Source: Sediminibacterium sp. (GTDB taxonomy: Bacteria > Bacteroidota > Bacteroidia > Chitinophagales > Chitinophagaceae). From it: a DNA stretch of 64,000 nucleotides. Each line of letters opens with the position of its first letter. The stretch's first letter is position 1. Under the pieces are notes generated by a model. The model saw only the letters and a list, made by a program, of their open reading frames with translations, did not search any database and had not been told where the DNA came from. Shown here piece after piece: positions 8,634 through 33,178 of this stretch. The stretch lies in NCBI GenBank assembly GCA_027487895.1, contig JAIYCS010000051.1, forward strand, positions 1 through 64,000. Direction: 5' to 3'. The translations under genes and the position numbers were made by a program.

Positions 8634-9515
8634 ATGGATGCATTTACCATTAAAGATTTAGAGAACCTTTCTGGGATTAAGGCCCATACTATACGCATAT
8701 GGGAACAGCGCTATCAATTCTTGAACCCTTCAAGAACGGATACCAATATTCGTTATTACACCAACGAAGAGCTTATAACCCTGTTAAACATTGCCCTACT
8801 TAACAAGTACGGGTACAAGATTTCCCATATCGATAAGATGAAACCCATCGAAATGAAAGAACGTATTCTTTCATTAACCCAATCGGAAGCACAACTCGAA
8901 AGAATTGTAAATGAACTGATTGAGTGCATGGTGGATCTTCGTATCGAAGATTTTGAATCGGTACTGGATTTCCAGATTACCAGCAAGGGTATCGAAAAAA
9001 CCATCACACAAATTATATTCCCATTCCTTGAAAGAATAGGCATACTATGGGTTACCAGCCGAATCAATCCTGCGCAGGAACACCTTGTTACCAATATTAT
9101 TAGACAAAAGCTGATTGTAGGGATCGAAAAAACTTCACCAGCTTTGCAAGCTAATTCTACAGCCCTCTTATTCTTACCGGAAGGTGAACACCACGAATTG
9201 GGTATCTTATTTATGTATTACTTGCTTAAAGCGCGTGGTGTTAAAGTACTTTATTTGGGTGCCAATGTGCCTATCAAAGACGTGCTCTATGTTGCAGACT
9301 TAAAGGTGCCTACATTTGTATATACGCACTTAACCTCTGTGGCTAGTAACTTTAATTTTGAAAAGTTTTTAACTAAAGTAGGTGCGACCCTTCCAAAATA
9401 CTCGGTGGTGGTGTCTGGTTTACTTACACAAACCTATAAAAAAGGGGTACCAAGCAATGTAAACCTTAAACGTTCTTTACCTGAAGTAATGGACTATTTA
9501 GGCAAGATTGCATAG
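8634..9515 (+). CDS. MerR-family regulator with cobalamin-binding domain (CarH/LitR-like photoreceptor)
   Basis: MerR HTH (FTIKDLENLSGIKAHTIRIWEQRY); W-x9-EH (WVTSRINPAQEH); ExHxxG B12 motif (GEHHELG) followed by GVKVLYLGANVP; upstream of carotenoid genes. Confidence 0.9.
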   Translation: MDAFTIKDLENLSGIKAHTIRIWEQRYQFLNPSRTDTNIRYYTNEELITLLNIALLNKYGYKISHIDKMKPIEMKERILSLTQSEAQLERIVNELIECMVDLRIEDFESVLDFQITSKGIEKTITQIIFPFLERIGILWVTSRINPAQEHLVTNIIRQKLIVGIEKTSPALQANSTALLFLPEGEHHELGILFMYYLLKARGVKVLYLGANVPIKDVLYVADLKVPTFVYTHLTSVASNFNFEKFLTKVGATLPKYSVVVSGLLTQTYKKGVPSNVNLKRSLPEVMDYLGKIA

Positions 9516-9547
9516 TTATCTTCCTCATTTTTCTACAATATTTTCAT

Positions 9548-9570
9548 AAGGAGCTGATAATCAGCACCTT
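9548..9570. terminator. Near-perfect hairpin after the CarH-like gene (terminator or operator)
   Basis: AAGGAGCTGAT-A-ATCAGCACCTT, one mismatch in 11-bp arms, followed by T-rich sequence. Confidence 0.5.
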
Positions 9571-9571
9571 A

Positions 9572-9660
9572 TTTGTTTAATAAATTTTAAAAAAAATTAA
9601 ACAAAAATGATTGCGGGATGATTTTCTTTGTTTAACTTTGGTTTTATAAAATTAAACAAA
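9572..9660 (+). promoter_or_regulatory. Promoter of sigma/carotenoid operon with two tandem inverted repeats
   Basis: TTTGTTTAA at 9572 and 9627, TTAAACAAA at 9597 and 9652; core promoter TTG (9611-9613)-N19-TAACTTTG (9633-9640), matching Bacteroidota TTG/TAnnTTTG. Confidence 0.8.
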
Positions 9661-10161
9661 ATGTCTACCCCCGAATTTAACGAGCTCATCATCAACAACA
9701 CTACATTTTTGAAGCCGTTTGCTTTTACGCTTACGCGTGATAACGAGTCGGCCAAAGACTTAGTTCAAGAAACACTTTTTAGAGCATTAGCTAACAGAGA
9801 TAAATACAATGTGGGCACCAATATTAAAGCTTGGTTGTACACGATCATGCGTAACATTTTTATCAATGATTACCGCAAAAAATCAAAGCAGGCTACTGTA
9901 TTTGATAATACACCAAACGATTTTTTAATTGACAATAACCAAACATCTGTTAGTAATGAGGCCATTGCTAAACTTAATTTAAAAGAAGTGCAAGAAGCCA
10001 TTCATAGCTTACCCATCATTTTTAAAAATCCTTTTTTACTTTATTTTGATGGCTATAAGTACCATGAAATCGCTGATATGTTAAATGAACCGCTTGGTAC
10101 TATCAAAAGTAGAATTCACTTTGCGCGTAAGCTGCTAAAAAATCAGTTGCACCGCTACTAA
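9661..10161 (+). CDS. ECF-type RNA polymerase sigma factor
   Basis: LTRDNESAKDLVQETLFRAL / IKAWLYTIMRNIFINDYRK / YKYHEIADMLNEPLGTIKSRIHFARKLL regions 2 and 4. Start refined to ATG 9661. Confidence 0.93.
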   Translation: MSTPEFNELIINNTTFLKPFAFTLTRDNESAKDLVQETLFRALANRDKYNVGTNIKAWLYTIMRNIFINDYRKKSKQATVFDNTPNDFLIDNNQTSVSNEAIAKLNLKEVQEAIHSLPIIFKNPFLLYFDGYKYHEIADMLNEPLGTIKSRIHFARKLLKNQLHRY

Positions 10162-10184: not shown

Positions 10185-11678
10185 TTGAAACAATCTGTTG
10201 TTATTATTGGAAGCGGCTTTGCCGGCTTATCTGCTGCGTCATTTATGGCAAAAGCAGGTTGGGATGTTACCGTTTTGGAAAAACATGAGCAGCCAGGTGG
10301 AAGAGCACGTAGGTATAAGGCCGCCGGTTTTACATTTGACATGGGACCAAGTTGGTATTGGATGCCCGAAGTTTTTGAACGTTATTTTAATCAGTTTAAT
10401 AAGTCGGTTTCTGATTATTACCAGCTTATAAGGCTTGACCCATCTTACCGCGTATATTGGCCTGATGGTCCGGTAGATATTCCTGCTAATTACAATGCCC
10501 TTAAAAATTTATTTGACACCATTGAGCCAGGGGCAGGTCATCAACTCGATTTATTTTTAGCAGAAGCTGCTTATAAATATGAAGTTGGTATTAACAAGCT
10601 CGTGCACAAGCCAGGTCAATCTGTTACCGAATTTTTAGATTGGGAACTCTTTAAAGGCGTTTTTAAACTTGATGTTTTTAATTCCATTAAAAAGCACGTC
10701 GCAAAACATTTTAAAAATCCAAAACTGCGTGAACTCATGGAGTTTCCAGTTTTGTTTTTAGGCGCTTTACCAGAGAACACACCTGCGCTTTATTCGCTTA
10801 TGAATTACGCGGACATTAAAGGCGGTACTTGGTATCCTAAAACAGGGATGTATAATATTGTTGAAGGCATGTATGATTTAGCGGTATCGCTTGGCGTACA
10901 ATTTAAATTTGAACACGAAGTCACTGCTATCGAAGTTGAAAATAAAATAGCAACACGTGTTTGTACCAGTAAAGGAAATTTTGAAGCAGATGTAATTATA
11001 GGTGGCGCCGATTATCACCACATCGAAACCGCGCTGTTGCCTGCTGCGGCTAGGTCTTATAGTGCTGCTTATTGGGATTCACGGGTTATGGCGCCAAGTT
11101 GTCTTCTTTTTTATATTGGACTTAATAAAAAATTAAAAGACGTTCAGCATCATACCTTGTTTTTTGATACATCATTTGACGTGCATGGTGCCGAAATTTA
11201 TACGACAAAATCTTGGCCCACCGATCCGCTTTTTTATATGAGTATCACATCTGTAACAGATGCTACATCGGCGCCAGAAGGTCACGAAAATATGTTTTTA
11301 CTCATGCCTGTGGCAACGGGTTTAGCAGGAGATACGGAAGACGTTCGTGAAAAATATTTAGATCAAATGTTAACCCGTATCGAAAAGAGGCTCGGTCAAT
11401 CTGTTAAGGATGCTATTGTTTATAAAAGGTCTTTTGCGCAATCTGATTTTATATCTGATTATCATGCCTTTAAAGGCAATGCATACGGGCTTGCAAATAC
11501 GTTACTGCAAACGGCTATTTTAAAACCAAGCTGTCGTAGTAAAAAAGTAAAAAATCTTTTTTATACGGGTCAGTTAACAGTGCCGGGTCCGGGCGTGCCG
11601 CCAAGTTTGATTAGTGGTGAAGTGGTGGCTGGACAAGTTGTAAAACATTATTCAACAAATAAAAACAAACAACTATGA
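10185..11678 (+). CDS. crtI: Phytoene desaturase
   Basis: VVIIGSGFAGLSAASFMAKAGWDVTVLEKHEQPGGRA; C-terminal LFYTGQLTVPGPGVPPSLISGEVV; next to crtB. TTG start. Confidence 0.93.
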   Translation: MKQSVVIIGSGFAGLSAASFMAKAGWDVTVLEKHEQPGGRARRYKAAGFTFDMGPSWYWMPEVFERYFNQFNKSVSDYYQLIRLDPSYRVYWPDGPVDIPANYNALKNLFDTIEPGAGHQLDLFLAEAAYKYEVGINKLVHKPGQSVTEFLDWELFKGVFKLDVFNSIKKHVAKHFKNPKLRELMEFPVLFLGALPENTPALYSLMNYADIKGGTWYPKTGMYNIVEGMYDLAVSLGVQFKFEHEVTAIEVENKIATRVCTSKGNFEADVIIGGADYHHIETALLPAAARSYSAAYWDSRVMAPSCLLFYIGLNKKLKDVQHHTLFFDTSFDVHGAEIYTTKSWPTDPLFYMSITSVTDATSAPEGHENMFLLMPVATGLAGDTEDVREKYLDQMLTRIEKRLGQSVKDAIVYKRSFAQSDFISDYHAFKGNAYGLANTLLQTAILKPSCRSKKVKNLFYTGQLTVPGPGVPPSLISGEVVAGQVVKHYSTNKNKQL

Positions 11679-12511
11679 TGAACCTGTTTCATGAAGTGAG
11701 TCAGGATTGTAGTAGAATAACCACCGAAAAGTATAGCACTAGCTTTTCTTCGGCGATTAGATTGTTGCATAAAGACTTACGTACTCCCATTTGTAATATT
11801 TATGGTTTTGTTCGTTTTGCGGATGAAATAGTAGATACTTTTCATGGTTACGATAAGGCCATGTTATTTGAAGAATTTAAGAAAGCAACCTACGATGCTA
11901 TTGAAAGAGGCATTAGTTTAAATCCAATTTTACATAGTTTTCAAATGACCGTTAATCAATATAAAATTGATCATGCACTCATTGATGCTTTTTTATACAG
12001 CATGGAACTTGATTTAGGTAAGCATACCTATGATAGAGCCGGCTACGAAACTTATATTTATGGTAGTGCCGAAGTGGTAGGTCTTATGTGTTTGTATATA
12101 TTTTGCGATGGCAACCAGGCGCAGTATGATGCATTAAAGCCTGCTGCAAAAAGTTTAGGATCTGCATTTCAAAAGGTGAATTTCTTACGTGATGTTAAGG
12201 CCGATTTTGAAGGATTAGACCGTATGTATTTTCCAGATTGCGATTTTGCCAATTTTACACAGGCCGATAAATTAGCTATTGAACAGGATATACAAAAAGA
12301 TTTTGATGAAGCGTATGCAGGTATTTTAAATTTACCCATCAAAGCAAGATTTGGCGTGTATGTTGCTTATAAATATTACTTATCGTTGTTTAAAAAAATA
12401 CAGCGCCTAGAGCCTGCGCATATTTTAGAGTCTCGTATTCGTATACCAGATTATGGCAAGGCCTTTATTCTTGCAAAAGCCGGCATTAGAAGTCAGTTAA
12501 ATATTATGTAA
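11675..12511 (+). CDS. crtB: Phytoene synthase
   Basis: YGFVRFADEIVD, FQKVNFLRDVKADFEGLDRMYFP squalene/phytoene synthase motifs. Confidence 0.93.
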   Translation: MMNLFHEVSQDCSRITTEKYSTSFSSAIRLLHKDLRTPICNIYGFVRFADEIVDTFHGYDKAMLFEEFKKATYDAIERGISLNPILHSFQMTVNQYKIDHALIDAFLYSMELDLGKHTYDRAGYETYIYGSAEVVGLMCLYIFCDGNQAQYDALKPAAKSLGSAFQKVNFLRDVKADFEGLDRMYFPDCDFANFTQADKLAIEQDIQKDFDEAYAGILNLPIKARFGVYVAYKYYLSLFKKIQRLEPAHILESRIRIPDYGKAFILAKAGIRSQLNIM

Positions 12512-12521
12512 AGCCCCCGTC

Positions 12522-13061
12522 ATGATAGAAGAAGTAGTGCTTGTAAACGAAAAGGATGAAGCGGTGGGCGCCATGGAAAAAATGGCTGCGCACGAACAGG
12601 CGATACTTCATAGGGCATTTAGTGTTTTTATTTTCAATAAAAATGGCGATGTATTAATGCAGCAGCGCGCGCATAGTAAATACCATAGCGGAGGTTTATG
12701 GACCAATACTTGTTGCAGTCATCCAAGACCCGGTGAGGAAGTTGTAGCTGCAGCTACTAGAAGGTTACAAGAAGAAATGGGATTTACAACAAATCTTACT
12801 AAAGCATTTGACTTTACCTATAAAGCAGCATTTGAAAATGGGTTAACAGAACATGAGTTTGATCATGTAATTATAGGACAGTATGATGGTGTGGTAAATT
12901 ATAATCCAAACGAAGTAGCCGCATATGCATTTATGCCAGTTCATGAACTAGAACATCAAATACAGGAAACACCAGAACGTTTTACAGCTTGGTTTCATAT
13001 CGCATATCCAAAATTAAAAGCATGGATGGCGCATCCACAAAATAAAATTCATGCAGCCTAA
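12522..13061 (+). CDS. idi: Isopentenyl-diphosphate delta-isomerase, type I
   Basis: HRAFSVFIFNKNGDVLMQQRA, WTNTCCSHPRPGEE, Nudix-like EEMGF. Confidence 0.95.
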   Translation: MIEEVVLVNEKDEAVGAMEKMAAHEQAILHRAFSVFIFNKNGDVLMQQRAHSKYHSGGLWTNTCCSHPRPGEEVVAAATRRLQEEMGFTTNLTKAFDFTYKAAFENGLTEHEFDHVIIGQYDGVVNYNPNEVAAYAFMPVHELEHQIQETPERFTAWFHIAYPKLKAWMAHPQNKIHAA

Positions 13062-14535
13062 AAGAGCGGTTATTATTGGTTCAGGTATTGCAGGACTTGC
13101 GGCTAGTATTAGGTTGGTGGCGCAGGGGTATGAAGTGCATGTATATGAAAAATCAGATAAGCCAGGCGGAAAACTCGGTCATTTTTCTGAAGCGGGGTAT
13201 CAGTTTGATACAGGCCCTAGTTTGTTTACCCAACCACATCAATTAGAGGCCCTACTTGCATTAGTTGGAGAAAAACTATCCGATTATTTTACCTATCAAA
13301 AAATGCCCGTTTCTTGTCATTATTTTTATGAAGACGGAACCGTAATTCATGCTGCTACAGATCCCGAATTATTTGCTCAAGAAGCGCATCTAAAAACGGG
13401 CGAGCCGGTTAGCAACATTAAAAATTATTTAGCTGCTTCCGAAAAATTATACACGCGTATCGGTCAAGTTTTTTTAGACCATTCGTTACATAAGTTTTCT
13501 ACGTTGTTTAAGATTCCGCTTTTGTCGGCGTTACGCGCATTTAAACTGCCCTATGTAACAAAGTCGATGCATAAGCACAACGAAAAGGCTTTTTCTTCTA
13601 AAAAATTAGTGCAACTATTTAATAGGTATGCTACTTATAATGGAAGCAATCCTTATGTGGCACCTAGTATGCTCACTTTAATTGCTCATTTAGAGCATAA
13701 TGAGGGAAGTTTTTATCCTATGGGCGGCATGATTTCAATTACAAACACACTAGTGGCTGTTGCGCAAAAAAAAGGCGTGCAATTCCATTTTAATAGTCCC
13801 GTTCAAAAAATTACAACATCAAATAATAAAGTAACGGGTATAGAGGTTAATGATTGTGGAGTACCCGCTGATATAGTTGTAAGTAACGCGGATGTTTATT
13901 TTACTTACCTAAATTTATTAGGCGAGCCTTCTAAGGCGCAACATATTTTAAAGCAGGAGCGGAGTAGTAGTGCCCTGATTTTTTATTGGGGTATCAAAAA
14001 AGATTTTCCACAGCTTAGTTTGCATAATATTTTTTTTACAGAAAATTATGAAGCCGAGTTTGCACATTTATTTGAGGTAAAAATTCCATTTTCGGATCCT
14101 ACCGTATACATTAATATTACATCGGTGTGTGAGCCAGGTATTCAGGCGCCAGCGGGTAAGCAAAACTGGTTTGTGATGGTGAATGTACCCGCAAACACCG
14201 GTCAAGATTGGACCGCCATTACTGCATCTGTAAAAAAACAAGTACTTGCCAAGCTCGAACGCATGTTGGGTGAGCCCATTGAACCTTTAATTGAAACAGA
14301 AAAAATATTAGATCCTTTATTGATTGAAGCAAAAACGGATTCATATCAAGGGTCTTTGTATGGCACCAGTTCCAATGCCCCCATGGCAGCATTTTTACGT
14401 CATCCTAATTTTAGCAAAGAGTACAAGGGTCTCTATTTTGTGGGTGGCAGTGTACACCCCGGTGGCGGTATTCCGCTTTGTTTAAAAAGTGCAGAAATTA
14501 TGAGTAATTTAGCGGCAAAAGACAGCGTGCTATGA
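13051..14535 (+). CDS. crtD: CrtI-family carotenoid desaturase, likely 3,4-desaturase CrtD
   Basis: AVIIGSGIAGLAASIRLVAQGYEVHVYEKSDKPGGKLG; GLYFVGGSVHPGGGIPLCLKSAEI; second CrtI paralogue, next to CruF-like gene. Confidence 0.75.
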   Translation: MQPKRAVIIGSGIAGLAASIRLVAQGYEVHVYEKSDKPGGKLGHFSEAGYQFDTGPSLFTQPHQLEALLALVGEKLSDYFTYQKMPVSCHYFYEDGTVIHAATDPELFAQEAHLKTGEPVSNIKNYLAASEKLYTRIGQVFLDHSLHKFSTLFKIPLLSALRAFKLPYVTKSMHKHNEKAFSSKKLVQLFNRYATYNGSNPYVAPSMLTLIAHLEHNEGSFYPMGGMISITNTLVAVAQKKGVQFHFNSPVQKITTSNNKVTGIEVNDCGVPADIVVSNADVYFTYLNLLGEPSKAQHILKQERSSSALIFYWGIKKDFPQLSLHNIFFTENYEAEFAHLFEVKIPFSDPTVYINITSVCEPGIQAPAGKQNWFVMVNVPANTGQDWTAITASVKKQVLAKLERMLGEPIEPLIETEKILDPLLIEAKTDSYQGSLYGTSSNAPMAAFLRHPNFSKEYKGLYFVGGSVHPGGGIPLCLKSAEIMSNLAAKDSVL

Positions 14536-15230
14536 GGCTTTTTGTAGAAAAATATAAACTTGCTATTTCTGTTTTTATAGCACTCCTTTTTCACGTGAGT
14601 GGCATGCTTGGTATTTTAATTTCTGACCATGGAGCTTGGTTTGTTTCAAATACGCCACTCAACCTTTGGATTATGTTTGTGCTGCTGCTTTGGAATCAGC
14701 CCAGCTTATCTCCTAAATTTTGGTATTTTTTTATCGCTGCATTTGTTACAGGCATGCTCTCTGAAATAATAGGCGTAAACACAGGTTTATTGTTTGGATC
14801 TTATTTTTACGGAAAGGCAATGGGCCCCGGACTCATGGACGTACCATATACTATTGGTATGAACTGGTTTGTGGTTGTTTTTTGTGCCGGTACTGTTATG
14901 AAAATGTTGCACCGCTGGTTACAGCATCAGTTTTTAAAAGAAGGGGAAGCTGTCCCTAAACGCATAGAGAATCTGGCATTTGTTATTGATGCAGCCCTTG
15001 TGGCGGTTTTATTTGATTGGCTAATGGAGCCTGTTGCTGTAAAACTTGGATTTTGGACCTGGCTATCACTAGATATTCCGGTGTACAATTATGTATGTTG
15101 GTTTATTGTGAGTGCGGGTTTACTGGTTTTATTTAGAAAATGGGAGCAACCTAAAGCCAACCCTTTTGCACTACATTTGTTATGTATTCAAGTGCTGTTT
15201 TTTTTAACACTTCGAAATTATTTACCATGA
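14532..15230 (+). CDS. cruF: Carotenoid biosynthesis membrane protein, CruF-like (carotenoid 1',2'-hydratase)
   Basis: Polytopic DUF422-type protein (SEIIGVNTGLLFGSYFYGKAMGPGLMDVPYTIGMNWFVVVF; DWLMEPVAVKLGFW) inside the crt operon. Confidence 0.78.
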   Translation: MRLFVEKYKLAISVFIALLFHVSGMLGILISDHGAWFVSNTPLNLWIMFVLLLWNQPSLSPKFWYFFIAAFVTGMLSEIIGVNTGLLFGSYFYGKAMGPGLMDVPYTIGMNWFVVVFCAGTVMKMLHRWLQHQFLKEGEAVPKRIENLAFVIDAALVAVLFDWLMEPVAVKLGFWTWLSLDIPVYNYVCWFIVSAGLLVLFRKWEQPKANPFALHLLCIQVLFFLTLRNYLP

Positions 15231-15697
15231 TCTATGTTTTTGTTGCTATAGGCGTTTTTTTGTTGATGGAACCCATTACTTGGGCTACCCATAAATATGT
15301 CATGCATGGCTTTTTATGGTATTTGCATGAAGATCACCACAAGAAAAGCGATGGCTTCTTTGAAAAAAACGACGCCTTCTTTTTAATATTTGCCATTCCA
15401 AGTTGGCTTTGTATTATGCTAGGTAGTATGGCGCAAAATTACTGGTCGGTGGGTATTGGTGCTGGTATCGCCATGTATGGCTTTGCCTATTTTTTAGTGC
15501 ACGAAATAATCATTCACCAGCGTTTTAAATTATTTACCAGATCTAATAATAAGTACATCAAAGCCATTAGATGGGCGCATAAAATGCACCATAAGCATTT
15601 AGGTAAAGAGGATGGCGAAAGTTTTGGTATGCTAATTGTCGCAAAAAAATACTGGGACAAAGTGCGCAAAGAAGAAGCCTTACAAAATCAAGCATAG
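15227..15697 (+). CDS. crtZ: Beta-carotene hydroxylase
   Basis: EPITWATHKYVMHGFLWYLHEDHHKKSDGFFEKND; His clusters; ATGA overlap with cruF stop supports ATG 15227. Confidence 0.9.
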   Translation: MIYVFVAIGVFLLMEPITWATHKYVMHGFLWYLHEDHHKKSDGFFEKNDAFFLIFAIPSWLCIMLGSMAQNYWSVGIGAGIAMYGFAYFLVHEIIIHQRFKLFTRSNNKYIKAIRWAHKMHHKHLGKEDGESFGMLIVAKKYWDKVRKEEALQNQA

Positions 15698-15703
15698 GCT
15701 TTT

Positions 15704-16885
15704 TTGAAATCACAGTACGATTATATCATTACAGGTGCAGGTCTTGCGGGTTTAAGTTTACTTATGCGCATGATGCAGCATCCTTTTTTTGATAATGCTC
15801 AAATTTTGGTGATTGATGCAGCTCAAAAAAATACCAATGACCGAACCTGGTGTTTTTGGGAAAAAGAACCTGATATTTTTGAACCCATCGTAATCAAAAA
15901 ATGGGATCATGTTTCTTTTATTGCACCCACTTATAAAAGTGAATTGAACTTATCGCCCTTTGTTTATAAAATGATTAGGGGAATTGATTTATATACGCAT
16001 GTATTATCGCTCGCTGCCAGTAAATCAAATATTACATTTTGTACAGAATCTGTTTTGTCGGTTCAAACGACACAAACTGGAGCTAGGGTTCAGCTCAAAA
16101 ATCAAACACTTACCGCCAATAAAGTTTTTAATAGCATTTTATTTGAACCAGTAAATGTGCTGGCGCAAAAGTCTTCTGATTATTTTTTATGGCAGCATTT
16201 TAAAGGCTATGAAATAAAAACGGAAACCCCTGTTTTTAACGATTCGGTAGCCACACTCATGGATTTTACCGTAGATCAATCAAAGGGCACTACGTTTATG
16301 TATGTAATGCCTACTTCTAGTACTACCGCACTTGTAGAATATACGTTGTTTACAGAAAATTTATTAGCAGACAAGGATTACAACGAAGCCATACAGGCCT
16401 ATATTCAAAAAACATATGGCGCCGTGGTGTATAGTATAACACATCAAGAATTTGGTCAAATACCTATGACTAATTTTGCTTTTTCTGTTGGTGCTGGAAA
16501 CATCATTAACATGGGTGTTGCTGGTGGTCAGGTAAAAGGAAGCAGTGGTTATGCATTTCATTTTGTTCAAGAAAAAACAAAAGCGATTATAGCTGATGTA
16601 GTGGCCGGCAAAAATCCATTAAGGACGCTGGGTTTTTCTCAAAAAAAGTTTAGCCTGTACGACGCCGTATTACTTAGGGTATTACAAGACAAAAAATTAG
16701 ATGGCGCTACTATTTTCACTCAAATATTTTCTAAAAATCCACCAGACCGTGTATTTCGTTTTTTAAACAACGAATCTTCACTACTTGACGATTTGCACAT
16801 AATGGCATCTGTGCCAACGCATATTTTTTTACCAGCCGCACTATATGCTTTACTGGGTGTAAAGCGGCGGCGAGGCCTTAATTAA
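15704..16885 (+). CDS. crtY: Lycopene cyclase
   Basis: YDYIITGAGLAGLSLLMRM, DRTWCFWE, FMYVMPTSSTTALVEYTLF, AGGQVKGSSGYAF. TTG start. Confidence 0.9.
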   Translation: MKSQYDYIITGAGLAGLSLLMRMMQHPFFDNAQILVIDAAQKNTNDRTWCFWEKEPDIFEPIVIKKWDHVSFIAPTYKSELNLSPFVYKMIRGIDLYTHVLSLAASKSNITFCTESVLSVQTTQTGARVQLKNQTLTANKVFNSILFEPVNVLAQKSSDYFLWQHFKGYEIKTETPVFNDSVATLMDFTVDQSKGTTFMYVMPTSSTTALVEYTLFTENLLADKDYNEAIQAYIQKTYGAVVYSITHQEFGQIPMTNFAFSVGAGNIINMGVAGGQVKGSSGYAFHFVQEKTKAIIADVVAGKNPLRTLGFSQKKFSLYDAVLLRVLQDKKLDGATIFTQIFSKNPPDRVFRFLNNESSLLDDLHIMASVPTHIFLPAALYALLGVKRRRGLN

Positions 16886-16935: not shown

Positions 16936-17007
16936 GGCCTCGTAGTACAATGGATAGTATAAGAGTTTCCGAAGCTCCAGATTCAGGTTCGATTCCTGAC
17001 GAGGCCA
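16936..17007 (+). tRNA. tRNA-Arg (CCG)
   Basis: Acceptor GGCCTCG/CGAGGCC, anticodon loop TTCCGAA, T-arm GGTTCGATTCC. Confidence 0.88.
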
Positions 17008-33096: not shown

Positions 33097-33178
33097 TGCG
33101 GATGGAGGGGGTCGAACCCACACGCCTCGCGGCGCTAGATCCTAAGTCTAGTGCGTCTGCCAATTTCGCCACATCCGC
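33097..33178 (-). tRNA. tRNA-Leu (TAG)
   Basis: Minus strand GCGGATG...CATCCGC acceptor, anticodon stem CTAGA/TCTAG around CTTAGGA, long variable arm, GGTTCGACCCC T-arm. Confidence 0.9.

Follow-up and report, generated by a model that had tools for sequence, protein, structure and literature searches.

Inverted repeats at a Sediminibacterium carotenoid operon as a candidate operator of a CarH-type regulator in Bacteroidia

In Sediminibacterium sp., two inverted repeats of identical geometry bracket the promoter of an operon that begins with an extracytoplasmic function (ECF) sigma factor gene and continues with carotenoid genes. They lie in the window, the 64-kb stretch of DNA analyzed here; among named organisms, its closest relatives are Sediminibacterium and further members of the Chitinophagaceae. 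From sequence comparisons we assign a probability of about 0.76 to the reading that the repeats serve as operator for the adjacent B12-dependent, light-responsive CarH-type repressor, which would in turn control a class-wide light regulon. The features concerned are as follows.

8634 to 9515, + strand: CarH/LitR-type regulator gene (MerR helix-turn-helix [HTH] plus B12-binding region), identified by Pfam, motifs, and an AlphaFold2 model
9572 to 9605, no strand: IR1, candidate upstream operator, TTTGTTTAA-N16-TTAAACAAA, upstream of the -33 element
9611 to 9613, + strand: -33 element TTG, between IR1 and IR2, which lie 21 bp apart
9627 to 9660, no strand: IR2, candidate promoter operator, TTTGTTTAA-N16-TTAAACAAA
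9633 to 9640, + strand: -7 element TAACTTTG, of the Bacteroidetes sigma-A type TAnnTTTG
9661 to 10161, + strand: ECF sigma factor gene, first gene of the operon (Pfam Sigma70_r2 and r4_2; adjacent orthologues in relatives)
10185 to 16885, + strand: carotenoid genes, 3' of the ECF sigma gene, comprising the next seven entries
10185 to 11678, + strand: crtI-type desaturase
11675 to 12511, + strand: crtB
12522 to 13061, + strand: NUDIX/idi-type gene
13051 to 14535, + strand: second desaturase
14532 to 15230, + strand: carotenoid synthesis membrane protein
ending at 15697, + strand: hydroxylase-like open reading frame, with no family match
15704 to 16885, + strand: lycopene cyclase

A tRNA gene (16936 to 17007, + strand) lies immediately 3' of the carotenoid operon, and a second is found elsewhere in the window (33097 to 33178, - strand).

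Each repeat is 34 bp long and pairs TTTGTTTAA (9572 to 9580 and 9627 to 9635) with TTAAACAAA (9597 to 9605 and 9652 to 9660). The cores TGTTTA and TAAACA occupy 9574 to 9579 and 9598 to 9603 in IR1 and 9629 to 9634 and 9653 to 9658 in IR2. The promoter has the layout TTG-N19-TAACTTTG, followed by the ATG of the ECF sigma gene at 9661; the left arm of IR2 lies over the -7 box, and the last base of its right arm is directly 5' of the ATG. On rechecking the sequence, the positions that the initial annotation had given for the 9-mers, TTG, TAACTTTG, and ATG were all exact. In the Bacteroidetes sigma-A promoter type to which these elements belong, the consensus -7 element occupies positions -12 to -5 (PMC9723704), and transcription is predicted to start near 9645.

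The lone 9-mer is common, with 6 matches in the window against 4.6 expected, and it is the pairing that is rare. The genome-wide motif search that the initial annotation had proposed, run as TTTGTTTAA-N12-20-TTAAACAAA over the 2.21-Mb genome, returned IR1 and IR2 only, with none in the control, and not one of 20,000 dinucleotide shuffles of the intergenic region (9516 to 9660) contained even a single strict N16 repeat. The relaxed pattern TGTnnA-N18/19-TnnACA gave 99 matches in the genome and 108 in the control; it is thus too loose for a genome scan, and further weak sites in Sediminibacterium sp. are not callable with it.

Conservation was followed in a set of loci gathered through protein similarity to the CarH-like homologues and through ECF orthologues; most were not chosen for the repeat, while about 20 entered the set through the motif itself. 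The regions upstream of the ECF gene were scanned with mismatches allowed. At orthologous crt operons, where the initial annotation had proposed to look, the repeats are present in relatives, namely, in 142 of 144 distinct ECF-sigma/crt upstream regions with a CarH-like gene (two repeats in 94, one in 48, none in 2). The spacer is 16 to 17 bp in 236/238 repeats, compared with about one match per spacer in shuffles. Where two repeats occur, the left arms are offset by 54 to 57 bp in 90/94 pairs, and the repeats themselves are separated by 21 bp in 64/91 and by 20 to 22 bp in 89/91. IR1 and IR2 typically lie about 95 and 40 bp, respectively, upstream of the ECF start, with IR2 ending 0 to 7 bp 5' of the ATG in nearly all cases. 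The claim that AT-richness is a poor explanation of the repeats is thus borne out by the shuffles, the uniqueness of the pair in the genome, and its conservation in the family. Elsewhere, among orders and families that have a CarH-like protein, a single repeat is often found; the binding unit is therefore probably one inverted pair, and the tandem would be a doubling seen mainly in the family of the window.

At the promoter, TAnnTTT lies directly at the left arm of IR2 in 108/131 aligned family members, and TTG is found 14 to 18 bp 5' of that arm in 63/131 aligned regions, as against 10 to 13 of 131 at control offsets. IR1 has no -7 box, and its conservation is therefore not explained by promoter constraint.

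Within the arms, the core TGTTTA/TAAACA is nearly invariant and the flanks vary. CarH contacts the sequence TnnACA (PMC9304148; PMC8156234), and in known CarH operators an 11-bp unit, nnnnTnnACAn, is repeated directly in tandem three or four times (PMC9304148). The TGTTTA/TAAACA core fits TnnACA and, through IR2 on the -7 box, overlaps the promoter of the carotenoid genes. A direct-repeat reading of the site is ruled out, since half-sites at the 11-bp direct spacing of the known operators are at or below background (3, compared with a mean of 7.7 per spacing). Inverted half-sites are enriched at spacings of 24 and 25 bp (97 and 115, respectively, compared with a mean of 6.6). The true core spacing is N18-19, and a control core scan at the off-spacing N20-21 gave one match. 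Upstream of one carH-like gene (L216) stands TTTGTCTAA-N16-TTAGACAAA, in which the two arms are changed symmetrically and TnnACA still fits. At the level of sequence, then, the half-site of CarH is kept but the architecture differs, being an inverted pair 24 to 25 bp apart.

The distribution of the repeat follows that of the CarH-like gene. In the family sample, all 50 ECF orthologues in CarH-positive genomes carry the repeat (49 by scan and L202 by a core with the right spacing), compared with none of eight CarH-negative genomes from seven genera. Six of these eight have no homologue at E<1e-20. In another, G224, the CarH-like neighbor of the ECF operon (L148:1508-2359) no longer has W-x9-EH or the ExH histidine, and the operon is without repeats. 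The last, G256, has only a 40% homologue, encoded elsewhere, and that gene has its own symmetric variant, TTTGTCTAA-N16-TTAGACAAA. In a phylum sample of 80 genomes, the strict repeat was found in 32/44 CarH-positive and 0/36 CarH-negative genomes; the strict pattern misses degenerate sites, and 12 of the 44 CarH-positive genomes have no strict copy. Fisher values for the family sample (5e-9, counting 49/50) and the phylum sample (1e-12) serve as guides only, because the genomes share ancestry and independence is overstated; many of the compared genomes are metagenome assembled. In one genus whose carH is remote from the operon, the ECF gene keeps its repeat, while G204 of the same genus has neither. 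The repeat is also found directly 5' of carH itself in four loci (L033, L035, L263, and L267). Repeats with spacers of 18 to 20 bp in three CarH-negative genomes (G216, G363, and G280) look like chance. A repeat located within a coding gene (L224 and L233) was set aside.

In other families of the class, the strict repeat directly precedes a crtI gene that adjoins carH, and close ECF homologues were not found there. Across Bacteroidia families other than that of the window, it precedes crtI, rhodopsin, retinal synthesis, photolyase, fasciclin, and carH genes, and order-level loci have photolyase and lipocalin beside it. Pfam searches of 81 proteins flanking class-level repeats identified 13 fasciclin proteins, 9 CrtI-type desaturases, 5 TetR_C_23 proteins, 4 flavin reductases, 4 ECF sigma factors, 3 rhodopsins, 2 beta-carotene dioxygenases (retinal synthesis), 2 pterin synthases, and 2 CarH proteins, a set whose coherence was judged by eye. 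On balance, we favor the broader proposal that Bacteroidia CarH-type photoreceptors read a wide inverted TnnACA pair, with a class-wide regulon that would include rhodopsin phototrophy, retinal synthesis, carotenoids, photolyase, fasciclin-domain proteins, and the carH gene itself, though we hold it less firmly than the reading of the repeats given at the outset.

Several individual loci were also recorded. The repeat is 5' of rhodopsin genes at L245:1501-1532, L266:1501-1532, and L284 (near 1201), and in L266 and L284 the repeat is flanked, opposite the rhodopsin gene, by the start of a beta-carotene dioxygenase gene. Secreted fasciclin-domain proteins are the commonest neighbors outside carotenoid operons (L228, L232, L246, L249, L250, L251, L257, L261, and others); in L232 the repeat stands between photolyase and fasciclin genes. 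Near position 1500 of four loci from one genus (L225, L226, L227, and L229), the repeat is kept between genes for a START-like domain and a primary sigma factor although the spacer sequences differ. DUF2452-type proteins occur beside the repeat in L259 (by Pfam) and in L283 and L291 (by similar N termini).

The protein encoded next to the repeats is CarH-like by its motifs and modeled fold. It has a MerR DNA-binding domain at the N terminus (PF13411; E value, 1.9e-14), scores over the cutoff for PF02607 and under that for PF02310 (22.2 < 32.1), and contains the B12 site motif W139-x9-E149-H150 together with His187 (ExH) at the lower-ligand position, as in Thermus thermophilus CarH (TtCarH); W-x9-EH and H187 are invariant across 18 relatives. 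The AlphaFold2 model (mean pLDDT, 88) has as its best PDB match 5C8E, TtCarH with adenosylcobalamin (AdoCbl) and DNA (E value, 2.5e-15). With 101 bits (E value, 6e-29) against a cutoff of 400 for the NCBIfam CarH equivalog NF052513, the protein is homologous to members of that family but outside the curated equivalog. A PF01923 cobalamin adenosyltransferase is encoded in the genome, as is a cobalamin riboswitch, which makes a supply of AdoCbl in the organism plausible. A second MerR/B12 paralogue, 34 to 42% identical and retaining W-x9-EH, occurs in L204 to L215 and in L222 in a different conserved setting with no repeat nearby.

His132 of TtCarH takes part in bis-His ligation and disassembly in light, the H132A mutant failing to monomerize in light (PMC11796333); its equivalent here is Val140, and aligned relatives have other non-His residues. 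The position is variable in other B12 photoreceptors too (PMC11796333). Release by light may therefore differ in the Sediminibacterium sp. protein, and this substitution is the chief reason to question simple light-driven disassembly.

We infer physical binding, repression rather than activation, and dependence on B12 and light. In the proposed mechanism, each TnnACA half-site would in the dark receive one DNA-binding domain of the AdoCbl-bound protein, so that every inverted repeat holds two. Occupying IR1, 5' of the -33 element, and IR2, over the -7 box and up to the start codon, the protein would keep RNA polymerase away from the ECF-sigma/crt operon. Light would break the B12 cofactor and release the protein, and the sigma factor and carotenoid genes would then be made. 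The initial annotation had suggested the CarH-like protein as a fitting factor for the repeats around the promoter. Co-occurrence, co-loss, the cases in which carH lies at a distance, the TnnACA core, and the fold all speak for that assignment and for an operator pair around a sigma-A-type promoter. Its further argument that a tetramer fits four arms is weak because single repeats are frequent elsewhere and because the CarH proteins described so far form either tetramers or dimers.

The alternative that survives best, though we consider it unlikely, keeps the CarH-like protein on the repeats as a B12 or redox sensor or a MerR-style activator instead of a light-released repressor. In its favor, most MerR proteins are activators, valine stands in place of His132, and the CarH of one myxobacterium is a dimer (PMC9304148), so that oligomer-based logic varies. 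Against this, IR2 sits on the -7 box and start codon side, not in the -33/-7 spacer used by MerR activators, W-x9-EH and the lower-ligand histidine are kept, and the neighbors elsewhere are light related (photolyase, rhodopsin, and carotenoid genes).

Less probable still is that a different protein, such as the ECF sigma factor or a TetR-type regulator, owns the repeat and that CarH co-occurs with it through a common light response. The five TetR_C_23 proteins and four ECF genes flanking class-level repeats would fit such an owner, but the repeat at crtI beside carH in other families stands without a close ECF homologue, the ECF orthologues of CarH-negative genomes have no repeat, the core is the TnnACA of CarH, and presence and absence at the phylum level match CarH. 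That the repeats are no operator at all is effectively refuted by the conservation seen in the sequences: the arms are AT-rich and the left arm of IR2 covers the -7 box, but chance and AT-richness are ruled out by genome uniqueness and the shuffles, duplicated promoter elements do not account for an IR1 without a -7 box, an RNA hairpin or terminator is ruled out for IR1, which lies 5' of the predicted start and would be untranscribed from this promoter, spacing and offset are fixed across the family, and the repeat is missing from the CarH-negative genomes of this class.

In canonical MerR family operators, which are palindromic, MerR-type DNA-binding domains contact the inverted half-sites as a dimer. 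The candidate CarH operator shares the inverted half-sites; by comparison, its half-sites are wider apart and do not lie between the -33 and -7 boxes. The CarH systems of T. thermophilus and Bacillus megaterium resemble the one proposed here in the MerR HTH plus B12 domain, W-x9-EH, the lower-ligand histidine (His132 of TtCarH being replaced by valine), promoter overlap, and the TnnACA half-site core. Their operators consist of 11-bp units repeated directly in tandem three or four times (PMC9304148), whereas the half-sites here are inverted and 24 to 25 bp apart, often as two such pairs 54 to 57 bp apart. The CarA/CarH operator of Myxococcus xanthus and Cystobacter, which likewise controls a carotenoid operon, spans about 55 bp and was first described as two inverted repeats, one 5' of the -35 element and the other overlapping it (PMC9304148). 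Those inverted repeats are not conserved, and the site was reinterpreted by the authors as direct repeats (PMC9304148), whereas in the operator proposed here it is the inverted pair that is conserved, with no direct repeats.

In the literature covered, mostly outside subscription journals, we found nothing on CarH operators in Bacteroidetes. Carotenoids and rhodopsins occur commonly in Bacteroidota. For proteorhodopsin expression in the flavobacterium Dokdonia, the authors state that regulation needs further work (PMC3587595). A defined operator with a candidate photoreceptor would make light control directly testable and regulon members predictable by sequence. If the proposal is true, CarH recognition extends from direct to inverted repeats, which would bear on the arrangement of the DNA-binding domains and on optogenetic use.
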